From the NCBI GenBank assembly GCA_016213825.1, contig JACQZP010000013.1, forward strand, positions 62,001-126,000: DNA of 64,000 nt, read 5' to 3'. The stretch's first letter is position 1. Each line of letters starts with the position of its first letter. Positions 12,106-60,228 of this stretch are shown in pieces. The notes under the pieces were generated by a model that made no database searches, had not been told where the DNA came from, and saw only the letters and a list, made by a program, of their open reading frames with translations. This DNA is from Acetobacterium woodii (GTDB lineage Bacteria; Bacillota; Clostridia; Eubacteriales; Eubacteriaceae). A program made the position numbers and the translations under genes.

Positions 12106-12140
12106 AACTGAGAATTAAAAATTAAATAAAATCAATAAAA

Positions 12141-12310
12141 CAGGTGTCGGCTGTAATCAATGTATTATAAGCCGGTGAAAAGGGAAGTTGGGTGTAAATC
12201 CCACGCGGTCCCGCCGCTGTAAGAGAAGAGTTCCTCCAGGAATGCCACCATTTAATTGGGAAGGCAGGAGGTAATGTTGACGCTTGAGCCAGAAGACCTG
12301 CCTGCTTTAA
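12141..12310 (+). ncRNA. Cobalamin (B12) riboswitch
   Basis: Conserved elements appear in the right order: GGTGAAAAGGGAAGTTGGGT at 12163-12183, the CCCGCCGCTGTAA core near 12210-12223, GCCACC at 12244, and the B12-box form GAGCCAGAAGACCTGCC at 12285-12302. It is expected to bind a cobalamin and lower expression of the cbiJQOMN operon downstream. A terminator hairpin at 12366-12405 follows and is the likely expression platform. Confidence 0.95.
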
Positions 12311-12365
12311 TAACTCAAACTCTACGAGAGATAGAGGAGGTTTATTTTTGCGGGCTTTTTTTGCG

Positions 12366-42092: not shown

Positions 42093-42878
42093 ATGAAGAT
42101 AGCATTAACAGGAAAAGGTGGAGTTGGAAAAACAACCATCTCAGCAAGTTTAAGCCGATATTTTGCCGACCAAGGATATAATGTATTAACAGTTGATGCT
42201 GATCCCGATGCGAATCTTGGTCTTGCCCTGGGCATGAGCGAGGAAATGATCGCCAGTATTGTTCCCATTTCTGAAATGAAAGATTTAGTGGAAGAACGAA
42301 CAGCTGCCGATACCGGTTCTTTTGGTTCGATGTTTAGAATGAATCCTGAGGTTGCCGATATACCGGAGCGTTATGCCAAAGAATTTAATGGGGTCAAACT
42401 CTTAACCATGGGAACCGTAGACGCCGGAGGATCTGGTTGTGTATGTCCTGAGCATGTTTTATTAAAAATGCTGATGAGCCATTTGGTGCTTTACCAAAAG
42501 GACGTTGTGATCATGGATATGGAAGCTGGAATTGAGCATTTGGGTCGAGGTACTGCCGGTGCAGTTGACGCATTTATTGTTGTCGTCGAACCGGGAGTCC
42601 GTAGTATTCAGACGTTTCATAAAGTTAAATCCATGGCAATGGATATTGGTGTTAAACAAGTTTATGTTATTGGAAATAAAATCCGGAATGACGGAGATAT
42701 CGCCTTTATTACTGAAAAAGTCGGAGCTGAAAACATCATTGGTTTTTTAAACTACCGGGATGCCATTTCAGAATCTGATCGCAACAATCAATCGCCATAC
42801 GACGATCCTGTCATGAAAGAAGATATTGCCGCTTTAGGTAAAAAAATTCTGGCGATTGTCGAAGAAAAAAAGAAATAG
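42093..42878 (+). CDS. cooC: CooC-type nickel-insertion ATPase (copy 2, AcsF-like)
   Basis: 261 aa. Walker A GKGGVGKTT at the N-terminus, and the nickel-binding CxC in GSGCVCPEHV near residue 112. It sits between acsA and acsB, the place of AcsF in other acetogens, so ACS A-cluster maturation is the best guess. Only distantly similar to copy 1. Codon use is less biased than in acsA and acsB1, as expected for a chaperone. Confidence 0.92.
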   Translation: MKIALTGKGGVGKTTISASLSRYFADQGYNVLTVDADPDANLGLALGMSEEMIASIVPISEMKDLVEERTAADTGSFGSMFRMNPEVADIPERYAKEFNGVKLLTMGTVDAGGSGCVCPEHVLLKMLMSHLVLYQKDVVIMDMEAGIEHLGRGTAGAVDAFIVVVEPGVRSIQTFHKVKSMAMDIGVKQVYVIGNKIRNDGDIAFITEKVGAENIIGFLNYRDAISESDRNNQSPYDDPVMKEDIAALGKKILAIVEEKKK

Positions 42879-42944: not shown

Positions 42945-45119
42945 ATGAATATGAATCTTTTTGATATAATTTACGACGGCCAAGCTCAGTACCTACAACG
43001 TGCTGAAGAAATGGTAGCCAAAGTCGTTGCTGAAAAGGGAAAAGAAACACCAGTGAAATTCCCTGCTACTGCTTATGCTTTACCTTGTATTTATGCTATT
43101 ACAGGTAAAAAAATCACCAACGTAGGTGAATTGGAAGAAGCTTTAGCATTAGCTAAGGAAAAAATCCACAGAACAAATTACCTACAAGATGCTTTAGATG
43201 CTGGTACAGCTGCTGCAATGTGTGCAGAAATTATCGAAGCAGTAAAATATGTATACACTGAACTTCCATACGAAGGACGTCATGTAGAAGATTTAAATAC
43301 AACTGATGCCCGTTGTTTAGGACATATCACTGATGCTGAAGTTCGTAACTTTGGTGTGCCATTGGTAACAGATGACATCCCAGGTGTTGCGGTAATTATC
43401 GGCGAGTGTAAAGATGCCGAAATGCTTGCTAGTATCGTAAAAGACTACCAGGGCAAAGGTTTATTAACCTTCATGGTTGGTAAAGTAATCGATCAAGCAA
43501 TTGAACAAAAAATTAAAATGGGTATTGACCTTCGTGTTATTCCTTTGGGATACGAAATCGAATCTGTTATCCACGTTGTTTCTGTTGCGATTCGTGCCAG
43601 CTTAATCTTTGGTGCGACACCTCCAGGCGACTTCCTGGCTCACAGAACCTACACAAAAAACCGTGTTAAAGCATTTGTTAATGTATTTGGACCATGGGAT
43701 AACAAAATTATCGCTGCCGGTGCTGCTGCCATCGAATTAGGCTTCCCAGCAGTAACAGAAACTTTCATTAATGAAGTACCAACTTTATTATTACACCAAC
43801 CAGATAACAGCAAAGTTGTTGCAACTTCTTTAGAAGCTCGTAACATTAAAATCAAAGTTACCGAAATCGATTGTCCAGTTGCTGTTTCTTCAGCATTTGA
43901 AGGCGAACGTGTTCGTAAAGATACCATGTTTGCTGAATTCGGTGGAAACAAAACTGAATGTTGGGAACTTGTTACAACCGGCGATTTAGCTGAAATGGAA
44001 GATCATAAAATTACTGTTGTTGGACCAGATATTGATGACGCTATGTTCGAAGGAAAAGACGTTGTACGTTTACCTTTGGGTGTTGTTGTTACAGTTGGTG
44101 GTAAAGCAATGCAGAAAGACTTTGAAACCGTACTTGAAAGACGTATCCATTACTTTACAAACTATATTGAAGGTGCAATGCATGTTGGACAAAGAAATAT
44201 TGCTTGGATCCGTTTAACAAAAGAAGCATTTGAAAAAGGCTTCCGTTTAAAACATATCGGTGAAGTTTTATACGCAAAAATGCGTTCTGACTTTGACAAA
44301 GTTGTTGATAAATGTGAAGTAACTATTTATACAAACGCTGAAGATGTAAAACGACTTGGCGAAGAAATGGTTAAACCAATCTATGCAGAACGTGATGAAA
44401 GAATGGGCGCACTGACTGATGAAAGTGTTGATGAATTCTACACCTGTTTATTATGTCAATCATTTGCTCCTAGCCACGTTTGTGTTGTTACACCAGAACG
44501 TTTAGGTCTTTGTGGTGCAGTATCCTGGTTGGATGCTAAAGCTACTAAAGAATTAGATCCAATGGGACCAAATCAACCAATCGTTAAGGGTACAGCAACT
44601 GACGAACGTCTTGGAACCTGGGATTCAGTAAACGAAGTTGTAGCTCAAACTTCACAAGGTGCAGTTGAAAAAGTTACACTGTACTCAATCCTTGAAGATC
44701 CAATGACCTCTTGTGGTTGTTTCGAATGTATCTGTGGTATCATGCCAGAAGCTAACGGTGTTATTATTGTAAACCGTGAGTTCCCTGACACCTCACCAGT
44801 AGGTATGACTTTCGGTGAATTAGCATCTATGACAGGTGGTGGGGTTCAAACTCCAGGCTTCATGGGTCATGGTCGATTCCTCATCGGTTCTAAAAAATTC
44901 ATGTCAGCTGAAGGCGGTTTATCACGAATCGTTTGGATGCCAAAAGAATTAAAAGACGATGTTGCAGAACGTTTGAATAAAGCAGTAAAAGAAATGACTG
45001 GCATTGAAAACTTCGCAGACATGGTTTGTGATGAAACAATCGCTATCGATTCTGAAGCTGTATTAGAATTCTTAGAATCAAAAGGACATCCAGCTTTAGC
45101 TATGGATCCAATTATGTAA
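42945..45119 (+). CDS. acsB: CO-methylating acetyl-CoA synthase, copy 1
   Basis: 724 aa, normal length. A-cluster ligands are C501, C504, C513, C523 and the CGC pair C590/C592, in the spacing known for the Moorella enzyme. The N-terminal CODH-binding domain holds cysteines at 48, 93, 124, 155 and 310. It joins CO, the methyl group from CFeSP and CoA to acetyl-CoA. RBS AAGGAGGAAA; strong AT-ending codon bias. A terminator follows, so this closes the main acs operon. Confidence 0.97.
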   Translation: MNMNLFDIIYDGQAQYLQRAEEMVAKVVAEKGKETPVKFPATAYALPCIYAITGKKITNVGELEEALALAKEKIHRTNYLQDALDAGTAAAMCAEIIEAVKYVYTELPYEGRHVEDLNTTDARCLGHITDAEVRNFGVPLVTDDIPGVAVIIGECKDAEMLASIVKDYQGKGLLTFMVGKVIDQAIEQKIKMGIDLRVIPLGYEIESVIHVVSVAIRASLIFGATPPGDFLAHRTYTKNRVKAFVNVFGPWDNKIIAAGAAAIELGFPAVTETFINEVPTLLLHQPDNSKVVATSLEARNIKIKVTEIDCPVAVSSAFEGERVRKDTMFAEFGGNKTECWELVTTGDLAEMEDHKITVVGPDIDDAMFEGKDVVRLPLGVVVTVGGKAMQKDFETVLERRIHYFTNYIEGAMHVGQRNIAWIRLTKEAFEKGFRLKHIGEVLYAKMRSDFDKVVDKCEVTIYTNAEDVKRLGEEMVKPIYAERDERMGALTDESVDEFYTCLLCQSFAPSHVCVVTPERLGLCGAVSWLDAKATKELDPMGPNQPIVKGTATDERLGTWDSVNEVVAQTSQGAVEKVTLYSILEDPMTSCGCFECICGIMPEANGVIIVNREFPDTSPVGMTFGELASMTGGGVQTPGFMGHGRFLIGSKKFMSAEGGLSRIVWMPKELKDDVAERLNKAVKEMTGIENFADMVCDETIAIDSEAVLEFLESKGHPALAMDPIM

Positions 45120-45160
45120 TTAAATTTGACTTAAGTCGAATTTTGTAACATGCCTGAAGG

Positions 45161-45190
45161 CAGAACACAGACGTGTTCTGTCTTTTTTTT
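45161..45190 (+). terminator. Terminator closing the main acs operon
   Basis: CAGAACAC (45161-45168) pairs with GTGTTCTG (45173-45180), 4-nt loop, followed by TC and T8. Confidence 0.88.
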
Positions 45191-45303: not shown

Positions 45304-45933
45304 ATGTGTAATAATAAAGATCTTCATAGTCATGGCGAACACCACGATCACGAAGAAGGACATCCCCATAACAATGTTGCCGAACATGCTCACGACCACG
45401 TTCATCCTCATGACAGTCAAGAAGGACATGCCCATGATCATGAACACAGCCATGAACATGACCACAAACATAGCCATCCCCATAGTGATGATCACGACCA
45501 TGGCAGTGATCATACCCATGAGAGCGAGCATGAACACGAACATACTCACCAACACGCTCATCCCCATCCTCATCAGCATGAACATCCTCATCCACATGAA
45601 GGACAAGAACAGGCCCATGGTCATGAACACCCTCATGGACATGAACATCCTCATCCTCACAAACATGGAGATGGACATTGTGGTAACCATGGTAAAAATG
45701 GCGCCGGTTGCTGTCATGGTGGAGATGTTGAAAACAAAGACATTGAGATTTTAGGTTTGTTATTAGACCATTGGGTTGCTCATAATCAGGATCATGCCAT
45801 GGAATATAATACTTGGGTTGAAAAAATGAACCGATTGGGTAAAAATGATGTAGCTGAATCGCTCATTGAAGCGATTGCTTTAATGAGCGAAGCAGATAAA
45901 CATCTGGTTGAAGCAAAAAAAGAACTGAATTAA
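45304..45933 (+). CDS. Histidine-rich protein with a C-terminal helical domain (candidate nickel store/chaperone)
   Basis: 209 aa. Residues 8-138 hold about 50 histidines, mostly in HxH repeats with Asp, Glu and Pro; a GCCH motif closes the tract. Residues about 144-209 form a compact alpha-helical domain (LLLDHWVAHNQDH...YNTWVEKM) that is homologous to the whole 72-aa protein at 48981-49199. Met-Cys starts the protein, as in CooT. Own weak promoter (TATAAT at 45265) and RBS TTAGGAGGAA. A role in Ni2+ storage or delivery for the adjacent ACS genes is inferred from composition and place. Confidence 0.9.
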   Translation: MCNNKDLHSHGEHHDHEEGHPHNNVAEHAHDHVHPHDSQEGHAHDHEHSHEHDHKHSHPHSDDHDHGSDHTHESEHEHEHTHQHAHPHPHQHEHPHPHEGQEQAHGHEHPHGHEHPHPHKHGDGHCGNHGKNGAGCCHGGDVENKDIEILGLLLDHWVAHNQDHAMEYNTWVEKMNRLGKNDVAESLIEAIALMSEADKHLVEAKKELN

Positions 45934-46019
45934 TGTTATTAGCTGCGTTTTAAGTTGTCGTATTACACTAAAAGTGCAGGTTTCGTAAATCAACAATAAA
46001 AATAGAAATGCTATTGATG

Positions 46020-46043
46020 GGCGTTTGGATTTATTCAAACGCC
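46020..46043 (+). other. Hairpin before acsB copy 2
   Basis: GGCGTTTG (46020-46027) pairs with CAAACGCC (46036-46043), 8-nt loop, and no T run. The gap 45934-46103 holds no gene; the hairpin may be a processing or stability site. Confidence 0.55.
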
Positions 46044-46103
46044 TGTGAATACGTTTATTAATGCTTGAAAGCATTGAATTTCTTTAGAAAAGGAAGTGTG
46101 TTT

Positions 46104-48239
46104 ATGAGTTTAACAGATTTAATTTATGCTGGTTCAAATGCCGTTGCAGGTTTAACCGAAGGAGCTGTCAATGATGCCATCGCCAAATATGGTGAGGGTC
46201 ATTCCGTCGGATACCCGGATACGGCTTATTTTTTACCGATCATTTATGCAGCAACAGGGGTTAAGATTAAAACATTAGGTGATTTGCCAGCAGCAGTCGG
46301 CATTCTAAAAAGTTTAATTACCAATAAGGAAGATTTAGGCGAAGCTTTAAATGCCGGACTGGCCACCGCCGTCGGAGCCGAAATTATCGAAGCGATCCGC
46401 TATTTAGATGGCGATCCCTATGCCAATGATTCTGGCATTGGTTTTGTCGCTGATCCGATCATCCGTTCACTTGGGGTACCATTGGTAACTGGCGATATTC
46501 CCGGGATTGCGGTTCTTTTAGGAGAGTCATCCGATCCGGCTGCTTTGGCTGCGATTGTCAAAGATTATCAGGAAAAAGGCTTACTGACTTTTATGGTTGG
46601 TAATATTATTGAGCAAGCTTTAGAAGCCGGAGTGAAAATGGGACTGGACTACCGGGTCATTCCGTTAGGCCATGAGGTGACCTCGGTTATTCATGTTGTC
46701 TCCGTTGCTATTCGGGCTGCCTTGATCTTCGGTGGGATCGAACCCGGTAAATTACCTGAATTCCTGACTTATACCAAAGAACGGGTACCGGCTTTTGTTA
46801 ATACCTTCGGTGAATTAAATGAAGTCATTGTTTCGGTTGGCGCTGGTGCGATTGCGCTGGGCTTCCCGGTTATTGCTGACGTTCCAGTACCAGAGGTACC
46901 CGGTGCCTTAATGACCCAGGCTGATCATGCTAAAACAGTCGAATTCTCATTAGAAGCCCGAGATATTAAAATTAAAGTTACCAAAATTGATGTTCCTGTT
47001 TCGGTTGCTTCTGCCTTTGAAGGCGAGCGGGTCCGTAAAGACACCATGTTTGCCGAATTTGGCGGCAATAAAACAAAATGTTGGGAATTAGTCAAAGAAG
47101 CAGAATTAAGTGAAGTAGAAGACCATAAGATTACAGTCGTGGGACCGGAAATTGATGACGCCCAATTTGAAGGTGTTGATGTTGTCCGCTTACCACTGGG
47201 TATTTTGGTTGAAGTGGCTGGCAAGAGTATGCAAAAAGATTTTGAATCGGTTCTTGAACGTCGAATTCATTATTTCACCAATTACATCGACGGGGCTATG
47301 CATGTCGGACAACGGAATATTGCCTGGATTCGTTTGACTAAAGAAGCCTTTGAAAAAGGGTTCCGGTTAAAACACATTGGCGAAGTGCTCTACGCAAAAA
47401 TGCGCGCAGACTTTGACAATGTTGTGGATAAATGCCAGGTTACATTATACACCAATCTGGCAGATGTCGAACGGCTGGAAGAAGAAATGGTTAAACCAAT
47501 CTACGCCGAACGTGATGAACGAATGGGTGCACTAACTGACGAAAGTGTTGAAACTTTCTATACCTGTACGCTATGCCAGTCATTTGCTCCAAGCCACGTT
47601 TGTGTGGTCACACCGGAACGGCTCGGTTTGTGTGGCGCGGTTTCCTGGTTGGATAGCAAAGCTACCAAGGAATTGGATCCCGCTGGTCCTTCCCAACCAA
47701 TTGAAAAAGGCGAAGCCGTTGATGAAAAAATAGGTATTTGGGAATCGGTTAACAAAACGGTTGCGGCCGCTTCTCAGGGTGCTGTTGAGCGGGTAACGCT
47801 GTACTCAATCCTGGAAGATCCGATGACCTCCTGTGGTTGTTTTGAATGTATCTGCGGAATCATGCCAGAAGCCAATGGTGTTGTCATTGTTAACCGGGAG
47901 TTTAGTGAAATTTCGCCAGTAGGAATGACTTTTGGCGAACTGGCTTCGATGACTGGTGGTGGGGTTCAGACACCTGGCTTTATGGGTCACGGTCGTCATT
48001 TCATCGGCTCTAAAAAATTCATGTCAGCTGAAGGCGGTTTAACGCGAATTGTCTGGATGCCAAAAGAATTAAAAGACGATGTGGCTGAACGCTTAAATAA
48101 AGCAGCATTTGAGTTAACCGGGATCGAAAATTTCGTCGACATGGTTTGCGACGAAACGATTGCCACTGATTCTGAAGCGGTATTGGAATTCCTGGAATCT
48201 AAAGGCCATCCAGCCTTGGCGATGGATCCAATTATGTAA
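46104..48239 (+). CDS. acsB: CO-methylating acetyl-CoA synthase, copy 2
   Basis: 711 aa from the ATG at 46104 (AAAGGAAGTG upstream). All A-cluster ligands are kept: C488, C491, C500, C510, C577, C579. From about residue 305 on it is nearly the same as copy 1, but the N-terminal domain is much more diverged and has no cysteine before C326, where copy 1 has five. Codon use is less biased (CGG, GCC, CTG common). It could assemble with a different CODH or serve when copy 1 is not made; catalytic ability looks intact. Confidence 0.95.
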   Translation: MSLTDLIYAGSNAVAGLTEGAVNDAIAKYGEGHSVGYPDTAYFLPIIYAATGVKIKTLGDLPAAVGILKSLITNKEDLGEALNAGLATAVGAEIIEAIRYLDGDPYANDSGIGFVADPIIRSLGVPLVTGDIPGIAVLLGESSDPAALAAIVKDYQEKGLLTFMVGNIIEQALEAGVKMGLDYRVIPLGHEVTSVIHVVSVAIRAALIFGGIEPGKLPEFLTYTKERVPAFVNTFGELNEVIVSVGAGAIALGFPVIADVPVPEVPGALMTQADHAKTVEFSLEARDIKIKVTKIDVPVSVASAFEGERVRKDTMFAEFGGNKTKCWELVKEAELSEVEDHKITVVGPEIDDAQFEGVDVVRLPLGILVEVAGKSMQKDFESVLERRIHYFTNYIDGAMHVGQRNIAWIRLTKEAFEKGFRLKHIGEVLYAKMRADFDNVVDKCQVTLYTNLADVERLEEEMVKPIYAERDERMGALTDESVETFYTCTLCQSFAPSHVCVVTPERLGLCGAVSWLDSKATKELDPAGPSQPIEKGEAVDEKIGIWESVNKTVAAASQGAVERVTLYSILEDPMTSCGCFECICGIMPEANGVVIVNREFSEISPVGMTFGELASMTGGGVQTPGFMGHGRHFIGSKKFMSAEGGLTRIVWMPKELKDDVAERLNKAAFELTGIENFVDMVCDETIATDSEAVLEFLESKGHPALAMDPIM

Positions 48240-48357
48240 TAAAACAGCCTTAAATTAAGACTGATATAGTATTATAAATGTATAGTCGCCCCTTAGCTTG
48301 TGTTAAGGGGTGGACTGTGTTAAAATAGCCTCAAATAAAAGAAAGGAGACTGAGAAC

Positions 48358-48555
48358 ATGTGTGAATCTTCAGCTTATATGATTACTCCTGAAGGAGAAA
48401 CAAAGATAATGGACTATGTTGTCGATATCGTTCCAAATGACGATGGTAGCTTGACCCTGTCCGATTTATTGGGTGGTACAAAAATTGTTCAAGGCAAACT
48501 AAAAGAAGTGAAACTTCTTAACCACAAAATTATTATCGAAGGAACAACGGTTTAA
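48358..48555 (+). CDS. cooT: CooT-family nickel-binding protein
   Basis: 65 aa from the ATG at 48358 (AAAGGAGAC upstream). Starts MCESSAYM, with the invariant Cys2 that binds Ni2+ in CooT of Rhodospirillum rubrum; the rest is a small beta barrel (VVDIVPNDDGSLTLSDLLGG). CooT is a dimeric nickel chaperone for CODH. Placed right after acsB copy 2, it supports a nickel-delivery function for the whole tail of the cluster. Confidence 0.88.
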   Translation: MCESSAYMITPEGETKIMDYVVDIVPNDDGSLTLSDLLGGTKIVQGKLKEVKLLNHKIIIEGTTV

Positions 48556-48557
48556 TT

Positions 48558-48980
48558 ATGAACATTGTTGTGCTCGACGGTATGGGAGGCGGCATTGGGT
48601 CACGGATTGTTGGAATCCTTAAAGAAGAAATTCCACCATATATTGAAGTATATGGGCTGGGAACTAACGCCTTGGCCACTGCTGCGATGCTAAAAAAGGG
48701 TGCCAATAAAGGGGCCACTGGTGAAAATGCCATCGCTGTAACAGTAAAAAAAGCGGATTTTATTATCGGCTCAATTGCGATGACGATTCCAAACTCCATG
48801 ATGGGCGAAGTGACGCCGAAAATGGTTGAAGCCATTGGAAATAGTGACGGATTTAAAATCTATATCCCGATTCTTCCTGAAAATCACCACATTGTTTCAC
48901 TGGAGGAAAAACCATTATTGCTCCAAATTCGTGAAGCCGTGTCGTTGATTAAAAAAGAACTCAATTTAGGAGACGTGTAA
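48558..48980 (+). CDS. DUF3842 family protein
   Basis: 140 aa. Opens with VVLDGMGGGIGSRIV, a glycine-rich nucleotide-binding-like loop, followed by GLGTNALATAAMLKKGAN and a GSIAMTIPNSMMGEVTP block typical of DUF3842. Function unknown; it follows cooT by 2 bp and is directly joined to the next gene, so it is part of the same unit. Confidence 0.85.
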   Translation: MNIVVLDGMGGGIGSRIVGILKEEIPPYIEVYGLGTNALATAAMLKKGANKGATGENAIAVTVKKADFIIGSIAMTIPNSMMGEVTPKMVEAIGNSDGFKIYIPILPENHHIVSLEEKPLLLQIREAVSLIKKELNLGDV

Positions 48981-49199
48981 ATGGATGCTAAATTAAATAT
49001 GGATAAGGATGAAGAAATCTTCAAAGTTTTTCTGGCACATTGGATTAACCATACGGGTGATCACATTGAAGGTTACCGGGAATGGGCAGAAAAATTAAAG
49101 GATACATCAAAAGACAGTGTTTCTAGAGAAATATTTTTAGCGATTGAAAAAATGCGAGCTGCGCAAAAGAAGATAATGGAAGCAAAAATGCGTTTCTAA
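48981..49199 (+). CDS. Small helical protein homologous to the C-terminal domain of the histidine-rich protein
   Basis: 72 aa, start immediately after the DUF3842 stop (AGGAGACGTG RBS). The whole length after residue 8 lines up with residues 144-209 of the His-rich protein: shared pattern HWxxHxxDHxxxYxxWxEK, then KxxVxxxIxxAI, then EAK near the end. The HW..H..DH histidines may bind a metal. No named family is recognised. Confidence 0.83.
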   Translation: MDAKLNMDKDEEIFKVFLAHWINHTGDHIEGYREWAEKLKDTSKDSVSREIFLAIEKMRAAQKKIMEAKMRF

Positions 49200-49249
49200 G
49201 AATTTTTTTCACTGCAAAATAAAAGCCAACCACAACCCATGCTTGAAAG

Positions 49250-49361
49250 CAGGACTTTTAGTTCTGTTTTTTTTATGTGCATGAATTGATTGGTGATTGG
49301 GAAGATGTATTTTGTAATTAGCCATCGAAGAAATGAAAATCATTTTTTCGGTGGCTTTTTT
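49250..49361 (+). terminator. Two terminators after the acs tail
   Basis: Hairpin 1: CAGGAC (49250-49255) with GTTCTG (49261-49266) and T8. Hairpin 2: GCCATCGAA (49321-49329) with TTCGGTGGC (49347-49355, one G-T pair) and T6. Together they isolate the acs region from the next gene. Confidence 0.8.
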
Positions 49362-54019: not shown

Positions 54020-54029
54020 AGCGTCGTTG

Positions 54030-54148
54030 TTAAAGACGCATTCATCCATAGACAGTAGGTGTACATAAATCCTACCGAGGTTGAAGAGAAAAAAGCTTAT
54101 TATTAAATATAAAGCTCTCTTCACGCTGTGGAGTGAGCTTTTTTGATA
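54030..54148 (+). ncRNA. Ribosomal protein L10 leader
   Basis: The leader between the promoter and rplJ has the GTAGGTG...CCTACCG stem region near 54055-54080 seen in Firmicute L10 leaders, followed by an attenuator-like hairpin (AAAGCTCTCTT near 54110 with GAGTGAGCTTTTTT ending at 54145). L10(L12) complex is known to bind such leaders and lower its own expression. Confidence 0.82.
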
Positions 54149-54177
54149 CGATTTTTAAAAGGAGGTGCAGATAATAC

Positions 54178-60133: not shown

Positions 60134-60228
60134 GGTCCAGCGGAAGCAACAAGATATCGCAATGAGTTCATTTCGTTTAAAGGCAACTTCCCATCCTCTA
60201 ACACTTTACGCATCTTGTCTACTCTGTT
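60134..60228 (-). ncRNA. Tetrahydrofolate (THF) riboswitch
   Basis: Read on the minus strand: GAGTAGACAAGATGCGTAAA, GTGTTAGAGGATGGGAAGTT, AACGAA, GCG and ATCTTGTTGCTTCCGCT, in the same order and spacing as the known folE/folT-associated THF aptamer. It precedes folE by about 130 nt and is expected to reduce folate gene expression when THF is plentiful. Confidence 0.9.

Follow-up and report, generated by a model that had tools for sequence, protein, structure and literature searches.

The two small proteins encoded on either side of acsB2, the second acetyl-CoA synthase (ACS) gene in a 64,000-nucleotide stretch of Acetobacterium woodii DNA (the window, meaning the whole stretch analysed here), share a helical-hairpin (coiled-coil) domain that, judged from sequence, is that of CooJ, the nickel-binding protein belonging to the CO dehydrogenase (CODH) of Rhodospirillum rubrum. 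Because they are homologous to CooJ, both the His-rich protein and the 72-residue protein are read as CooJ-type nickel proteins, nickel binding being a prediction from that kinship. Probably, they form a CooJ-type nickel store and a tail-less nickel carrier serving ACS maturation. More tentatively, they may represent an ACS-specialised branch of CooJ in which a store with a histidine tail and a carrier lacking one relay nickel to the A-cluster in two steps, possibly as a heterodimer and once fused to the enzyme.

Both open reading frames, and a domain common to them, had been recognised in a sequence-only reading of the window, and both observations hold. Each frame has a ribosome-binding site: AGGAGG precedes the ATG at 45304, and AGGAG the one at 48981, which directly abuts the DUF3842 stop codon. 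Overlapping frames are also open in the His-rich gene; a composition artefact was considered for this frame and ruled out, and the frame is taken as real since other genera preserve the domain in the same frame. In BLASTP, residues 144-205 of the His-rich protein match residues 8-69 of the 72-residue protein at 39% identity over 62 residues without a gap (E 2e-11). The two domains have a Smith-Waterman score of 123, whereas 5000 shuffles averaged 26 (sd 5) and never exceeded 55. Furthermore, conservation of the two proteins extends to almost every species sampled from the genus and to other genera of its family, with dN/dS of about 0.06-0.17 where dS is computable. In the His-rich protein, the histidine tract is N-terminal and the CooJ-type domain C-terminal. 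This protein of 209 residues contains 54 histidines; the tract region of the family orthologues holds 25-59 and differs in length among species, and in an extreme case (genome G039) the entire orthologue has just 7. The 72-residue protein has 3 histidines in total, every one inside the motif (3-4 in the orthologues), and AlphaFold2 models it with confidence as a hairpin of two helices (H2-39/H45-70; mean pLDDT 91.8). Positions of the features are collected in the table.

Table. Features around acsB2, in window coordinates.
Feature	Position	Strand	Basis
Terminator-like hairpin (intrinsic), between acsB1 and the His-rich gene	45156..45185	+	pattern scan, stem of 13 pairs followed by a run of T; consensus match only
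His-rich protein gene, 209 aa	45304..45933	+	ORF, AGGAGG ribosome-binding site, same-place orthologues across the family
Histidine tract, about residues 8-138, ending in a short Cys/His stretch	45325..45717	+	translation
CooJ-type helical-hairpin domain, residues 144-205 of the His-rich protein	45733..45918	+	BLASTP E 2e-11, CooJ profile matches
HWVAHNQDH motif, His 156, 160, 164, putative Ni site	45769..45795	+	column conservation, 67 sequences including CooJ
acsB2, the second ACS gene, flanked by the domain genes	46065..48239	+	Pfam PF19436/PF03598/PF18537
cooT, CO dehydrogenase accessory protein	48310..48555	+	Pfam PF10133, E 4e-21
DUF3842 gene, a conserved neighbour of cooT and the domain gene, lying next to or between them	48558..48980	+	Pfam PF12953, E 1e-48
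72-aa protein gene, tail-less paralogue consisting of the bare CooJ-type domain	48981..49199	+	homology, orthologues, AlphaFold2 model
HWINHTGDH motif, His 20, 24, 28, putative Ni site	49038..49064	+	motif conservation
Pair of terminator-like hairpins 3′ of the 72-aa protein gene	49245..49356	+	pattern scan; consensus match only

The domain had been thought undescribed. This fails because it belongs with CooJ, whose structure is solved (6HK5). In Pfam and NCBIfam scans no model covers the domain in either protein, and the same is true of Pfam for eight distant relatives; a PDB search with the 72-residue sequence alone as a query gave chance matches only. A profile of family sequences, searched against the whole PDB, matched CooJ (6HK5) at E 0.21, aligned on LAHFLDHVEGH, and a wider profile brought 6HK5 to E 0.018 at rank 2 behind a designed helical protein, the match being in register on the HxxxHxxxH motif. 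A search with a CooJ fragment led to one locus, the cooS-cooC locus of Pleomorphomonas carboxyditropha, and from its approximately 60 ORFs a CooJ-free profile picks the P. carboxyditropha CooJ at E 1.8e-6. With this bridge included and R. rubrum CooJ excluded, the profile ranks 6HK5 first (E 2.4e-6), a match that is not fully independent because the bridge itself was found with CooJ. Alignment to CooJ by hhalign gave E of about 7e-6. The AlphaFold2 model of the 72-residue protein superposes on 6HK5 at 1.2 Å (64 residues), keeping the residue offset seen in the sequence alignment; the fold search scored several unrelated hairpins as high as CooJ, and the structural match is only consistent with CooJ, and weak alone, because hairpin folds are common and others fit equally. 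Taken together, the comparisons argue strongly for homology to CooJ. The outcome that the sequence-only reading had named as fatal to its idea, a family unrelated to metals and scattered over acs-free genomes, was looked for and did not occur.

The consensus of the domain motif is H-(W/F/L/M)-x2-H-x3-H, and both CooJ sequences compared have HF..H...H at this place. Among 67 sequences, the two CooJs included, the second and third histidines (His 24 and His 28 of the 72-residue protein) are invariant, the first (His 20) is kept in 63 and replaced by Tyr in the others, and the motif histidines are the most conserved residues of the domain. Spaced at i, i+4 and i+8, they share one helix face as calculated from helix periodicity. 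The motif had originally been written HW..H..DH; its histidines stand over the 67 sequences, while its Asp is variable (D/E/S/H/G/A). The proposal that it binds metal is strengthened by the homology to CooJ and loses the Asp, which is not conserved.

In the tree, the His-tailed and the bare forms make up two separate clades with supports of 99/99 and 95/97 (row L022_p0_93 of the tree group list is mislabelled “small”); with few columns in the alignment, the domains of the His-tailed proteins in G029 and G039 lie outside the first of these. The two forms are old paralogues. Genes in the family neighbourhoods follow a fixed order: CODH, cooC, acsB1, the His-rich gene, an optional acsB2, cooT, DUF3842 and the 72-residue protein gene, with acsB2 missing from several relatives. 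The AcsF/CooC gene of the window is at 42093-42878. The domain paralogues frame acsB2-cooT-DUF3842, and this gene order agrees with the early description of a domain used once with a histidine store and once bare. The hairpins downstream of the 72-residue protein gene likely mark the end of the transcription unit.

Some further features of the region are recorded here. Identity between the ACS copies at 42945-45119 and 46065-48239 is about 40-50% over the N-terminal third and 75-100% over the C-terminal part, an unevenness that suggests either gene conversion or selection acting on just one half; a third ACS gene is found elsewhere in the same genome (G000:C21). DUF3842 (48558-48980), whose start, VLDGMGGGIG, resembles a nucleotide-binding loop, regularly accompanies cooT and the CooJ-type domain throughout the phylum. 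Rfam matches in the window are a cobalamin riboswitch (12125-12319), a THF riboswitch (60136-60228) and a ribosomal protein L10 leader (54028-54153).

The distribution of the domain follows ACS. Of 40 genomes from the family to which the window belongs, 28 have the domain, mostly in two copies. Among 391 genomes sampled from the class, it is present in 19, ACS in 22, CooT in 43 and CODH in 74, with two weak matches (G127 and G222, E 0.003-0.004) left out as non-members. All 22 ACS genomes also have CODH. The domain was found in 18 of these 22, in 0 of 52 genomes with CODH only, and in 1 of 317 with neither, the sole exception (G259) carrying it beside cooT; Fisher p for the association with ACS is 3e-26, a value that ignores kinship, and domain and ACS occur together in six taxonomic families. 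A deeper profile adds one genome (G096, E 9e-10), giving 19 of 22 ACS genomes, and detects no domain in 16 CODH-only genomes searched again, while the same profile does find P. carboxyditropha CooJ. Since 3 of the 22 ACS genomes have no detectable copy even by this profile, the domain is not universally needed. In the phylum sample, from which G530 and G565 were left out as non-members with unmatched motif histidines, ACS is present in every one of the 12 additional genomes that bear the motif, and in several of them the cooT cassette and acsB lie on separate contigs. In addition, 17 of the 19 class genomes and 11 of the 12 phylum-sample genomes have cooT no more than 1 kb from the domain gene. 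From this distribution, the client in the phylum would be ACS or the ACS/CODH complex.

There are more unusual arrangements in relatives. In two genomes (G401, L078:6196-10115, and G315, L083:9719-14648), a His-tailed CooJ-type gene is located directly 5′ of a NikA-like importer operon, one permease of which starts with a short His-rich tag, MSTHTHTHTD. In another (G017, L035:9737-14704), an extra DUF3842/72-residue protein pair is found 3′ of a NikABCDE-type importer, away from acs. The permease of this importer exceeds the NCBI nickel cut-off (327.7 vs 300 bits); the importer binding proteins have NikA as their best match, yet stay below the cut-off. In a further genome (G029, L036:8696-11617), a His-rich tract and a CooJ-type domain are fused in frame to ACS in an ORF of 973 codons, which occupies the site of the separate genes and was seen in this one genome; ACS may also be made alone there, because an internal GGAGG is kept before the ACS start. 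The link to nickel and ACS first suspected from gene position and composition is strengthened by the homology to CooJ, the co-occurrence with ACS, the adjacency of cooT, the nickel-type importer neighbours in two lineages and this single fusion.

In the mechanism that we favour, the His-rich protein would collect Ni(II) in its N-terminal histidine store and would feed it to the ACS/CODH maturation machinery, namely the CooC/AcsF-type ATPase and CooT. The 72-residue protein would be a duplicated CooJ domain that has no store and keeps the HxxxHxxxH site alone; its probable role is to carry nickel at the interface of a dimer, or to dock with CooT/DUF3842 as their partner. The two proteins may thereby divide into a store and a carrier or partner and act as a two-part nickel store/handover pair, with dimerisation and transfer to the A-cluster as presumed steps. 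The pair might instead serve the C-cluster of CODH, the tie to ACS reflecting a cooT/cooJ-like cassette that travels with the ACS-linked CODHs of this lineage. This explanation, of which we are doubtful without thinking it far-fetched, draws on the shared cluster of cooC, cooT and CODH, on the known CooJ, which acts on CODH (PMC6006190), and on CooJ genes that PSI-BLAST revealed alongside one-carbon genes in operons of clade E CODHs (eLife 2026, PMC13056359). The absence of the domain from all 52 CODH-only genomes argues against it, 16 of them staying negative with a profile sensitive enough to find CooJ, and so does the fusion in G029, where the partner is ACS and not CODH.

A general nickel buffer, in which the His-rich form stores or detoxifies nickel in the way of Hpn or HypB tails and the 72-residue protein is a nickel sensor or importer partner, would suit the importers adjoining the domain genes (G401/G315) and the DUF3842/72-residue protein pair (G017), as well as the freely varying length of the tract among species; it is unlikely in view of the near absence of the domain from genomes without ACS, many of which import or use nickel, and of cooT as a nearly constant neighbour. 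We give very little credence to an unrelated coiled-coil hairpin that has converged on CooJ and has a structural role, docking or oligomerisation of acs products, with no metal binding. Low pairwise identity to CooJ, the frequency of chance coiled-coil matches and the lack of a Pfam or NCBIfam model would allow for it, whereas a match in register on three histidines and flanking residues, ranking first or second in the PDB, a genomic setting (cooC, cooT, CODH) that is CooJ's own, and the motif histidines as the most conserved residues all oppose it.

As a CooJ-type pair following ACS and not CODH, the two proteins are short, testable candidates for upstream nickel supply, and would be useful co-expression partners for producing active ACS in other hosts. 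Having the tailed and bare forms in one genome may also allow the tail and coiled-coil nickel sites of CooJ to be studied separately. The ACS-linked pattern points to a dedicated nickel supply for an ancient carbon-fixing enzyme.

Among known systems, the histidine tails of Hpn/Hpn-like, HypB and UreE resemble the His-rich protein in their long His-rich tract; to our knowledge, these proteins have no CooJ domain and have other partners. Such tracts can hold several nickel ions (table in PMC8704837). CooT, which binds nickel in R. rubrum (PMC6006190), is likewise a small accessory protein of the same cassette, but has another fold and family (PF10133), matched in Pfam by the neighbouring gene at 48310-48555 and by neither the His-rich nor the 72-residue protein, and it is spread more widely (43 vs 19 genomes). 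AcsF/CooC shares the role in nickel delivery to ACS/CODH and a gene in the cluster; unlike the two proteins here, which are without an ATPase domain, it is a P-loop ATPase performing the insertion, and the CooJ-type proteins would act upstream of it.

The closest relative is CooJ. R. rubrum CooJ was reportedly described by Watt and Ludden in 1998 and by Alfano et al. in 2019. Canonical CooJ is a homodimer binding Ni(II) in the tail and the coiled coil, its His-rich tract is at the C-terminus, and we know of no role for it in ACS maturation in that organism. CooJ binds nickel, and loss of cooJ makes growth of R. rubrum on CO dependent on added nickel (PMC6006190). The His-rich form is probably already on the list of PMC13056359, because CooJ was sought there by PSI-BLAST for lack of a model; the main text of that paper makes no mention of a tail-less paralogue, of a pattern following ACS but not CODH, or of a fusion. 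The His-rich protein has the helical hairpin, matched by profile to 6HK5 and P. carboxyditropha CooJ, with the H-aromatic-x2-H-x3-H motif, here HWVAHNQDH, at the same place as in CooJ, a His-rich tract in the same polypeptide, and a gene beside cooC/cooT and the Ni-CODH. A C-terminal tract is missing, and because its tract is N-terminal the protein is filed as a CooJ variant, not a canonical CooJ; the tract is also much longer (54 histidines in the protein vs 16 in the CooJ tail). The 72-residue protein has the hairpin with the HxxxHxxxH motif and lacks a His-rich tract. Unlike CooJ, the system here includes a tail-less paralogue, and its client would, by distribution, be ACS.
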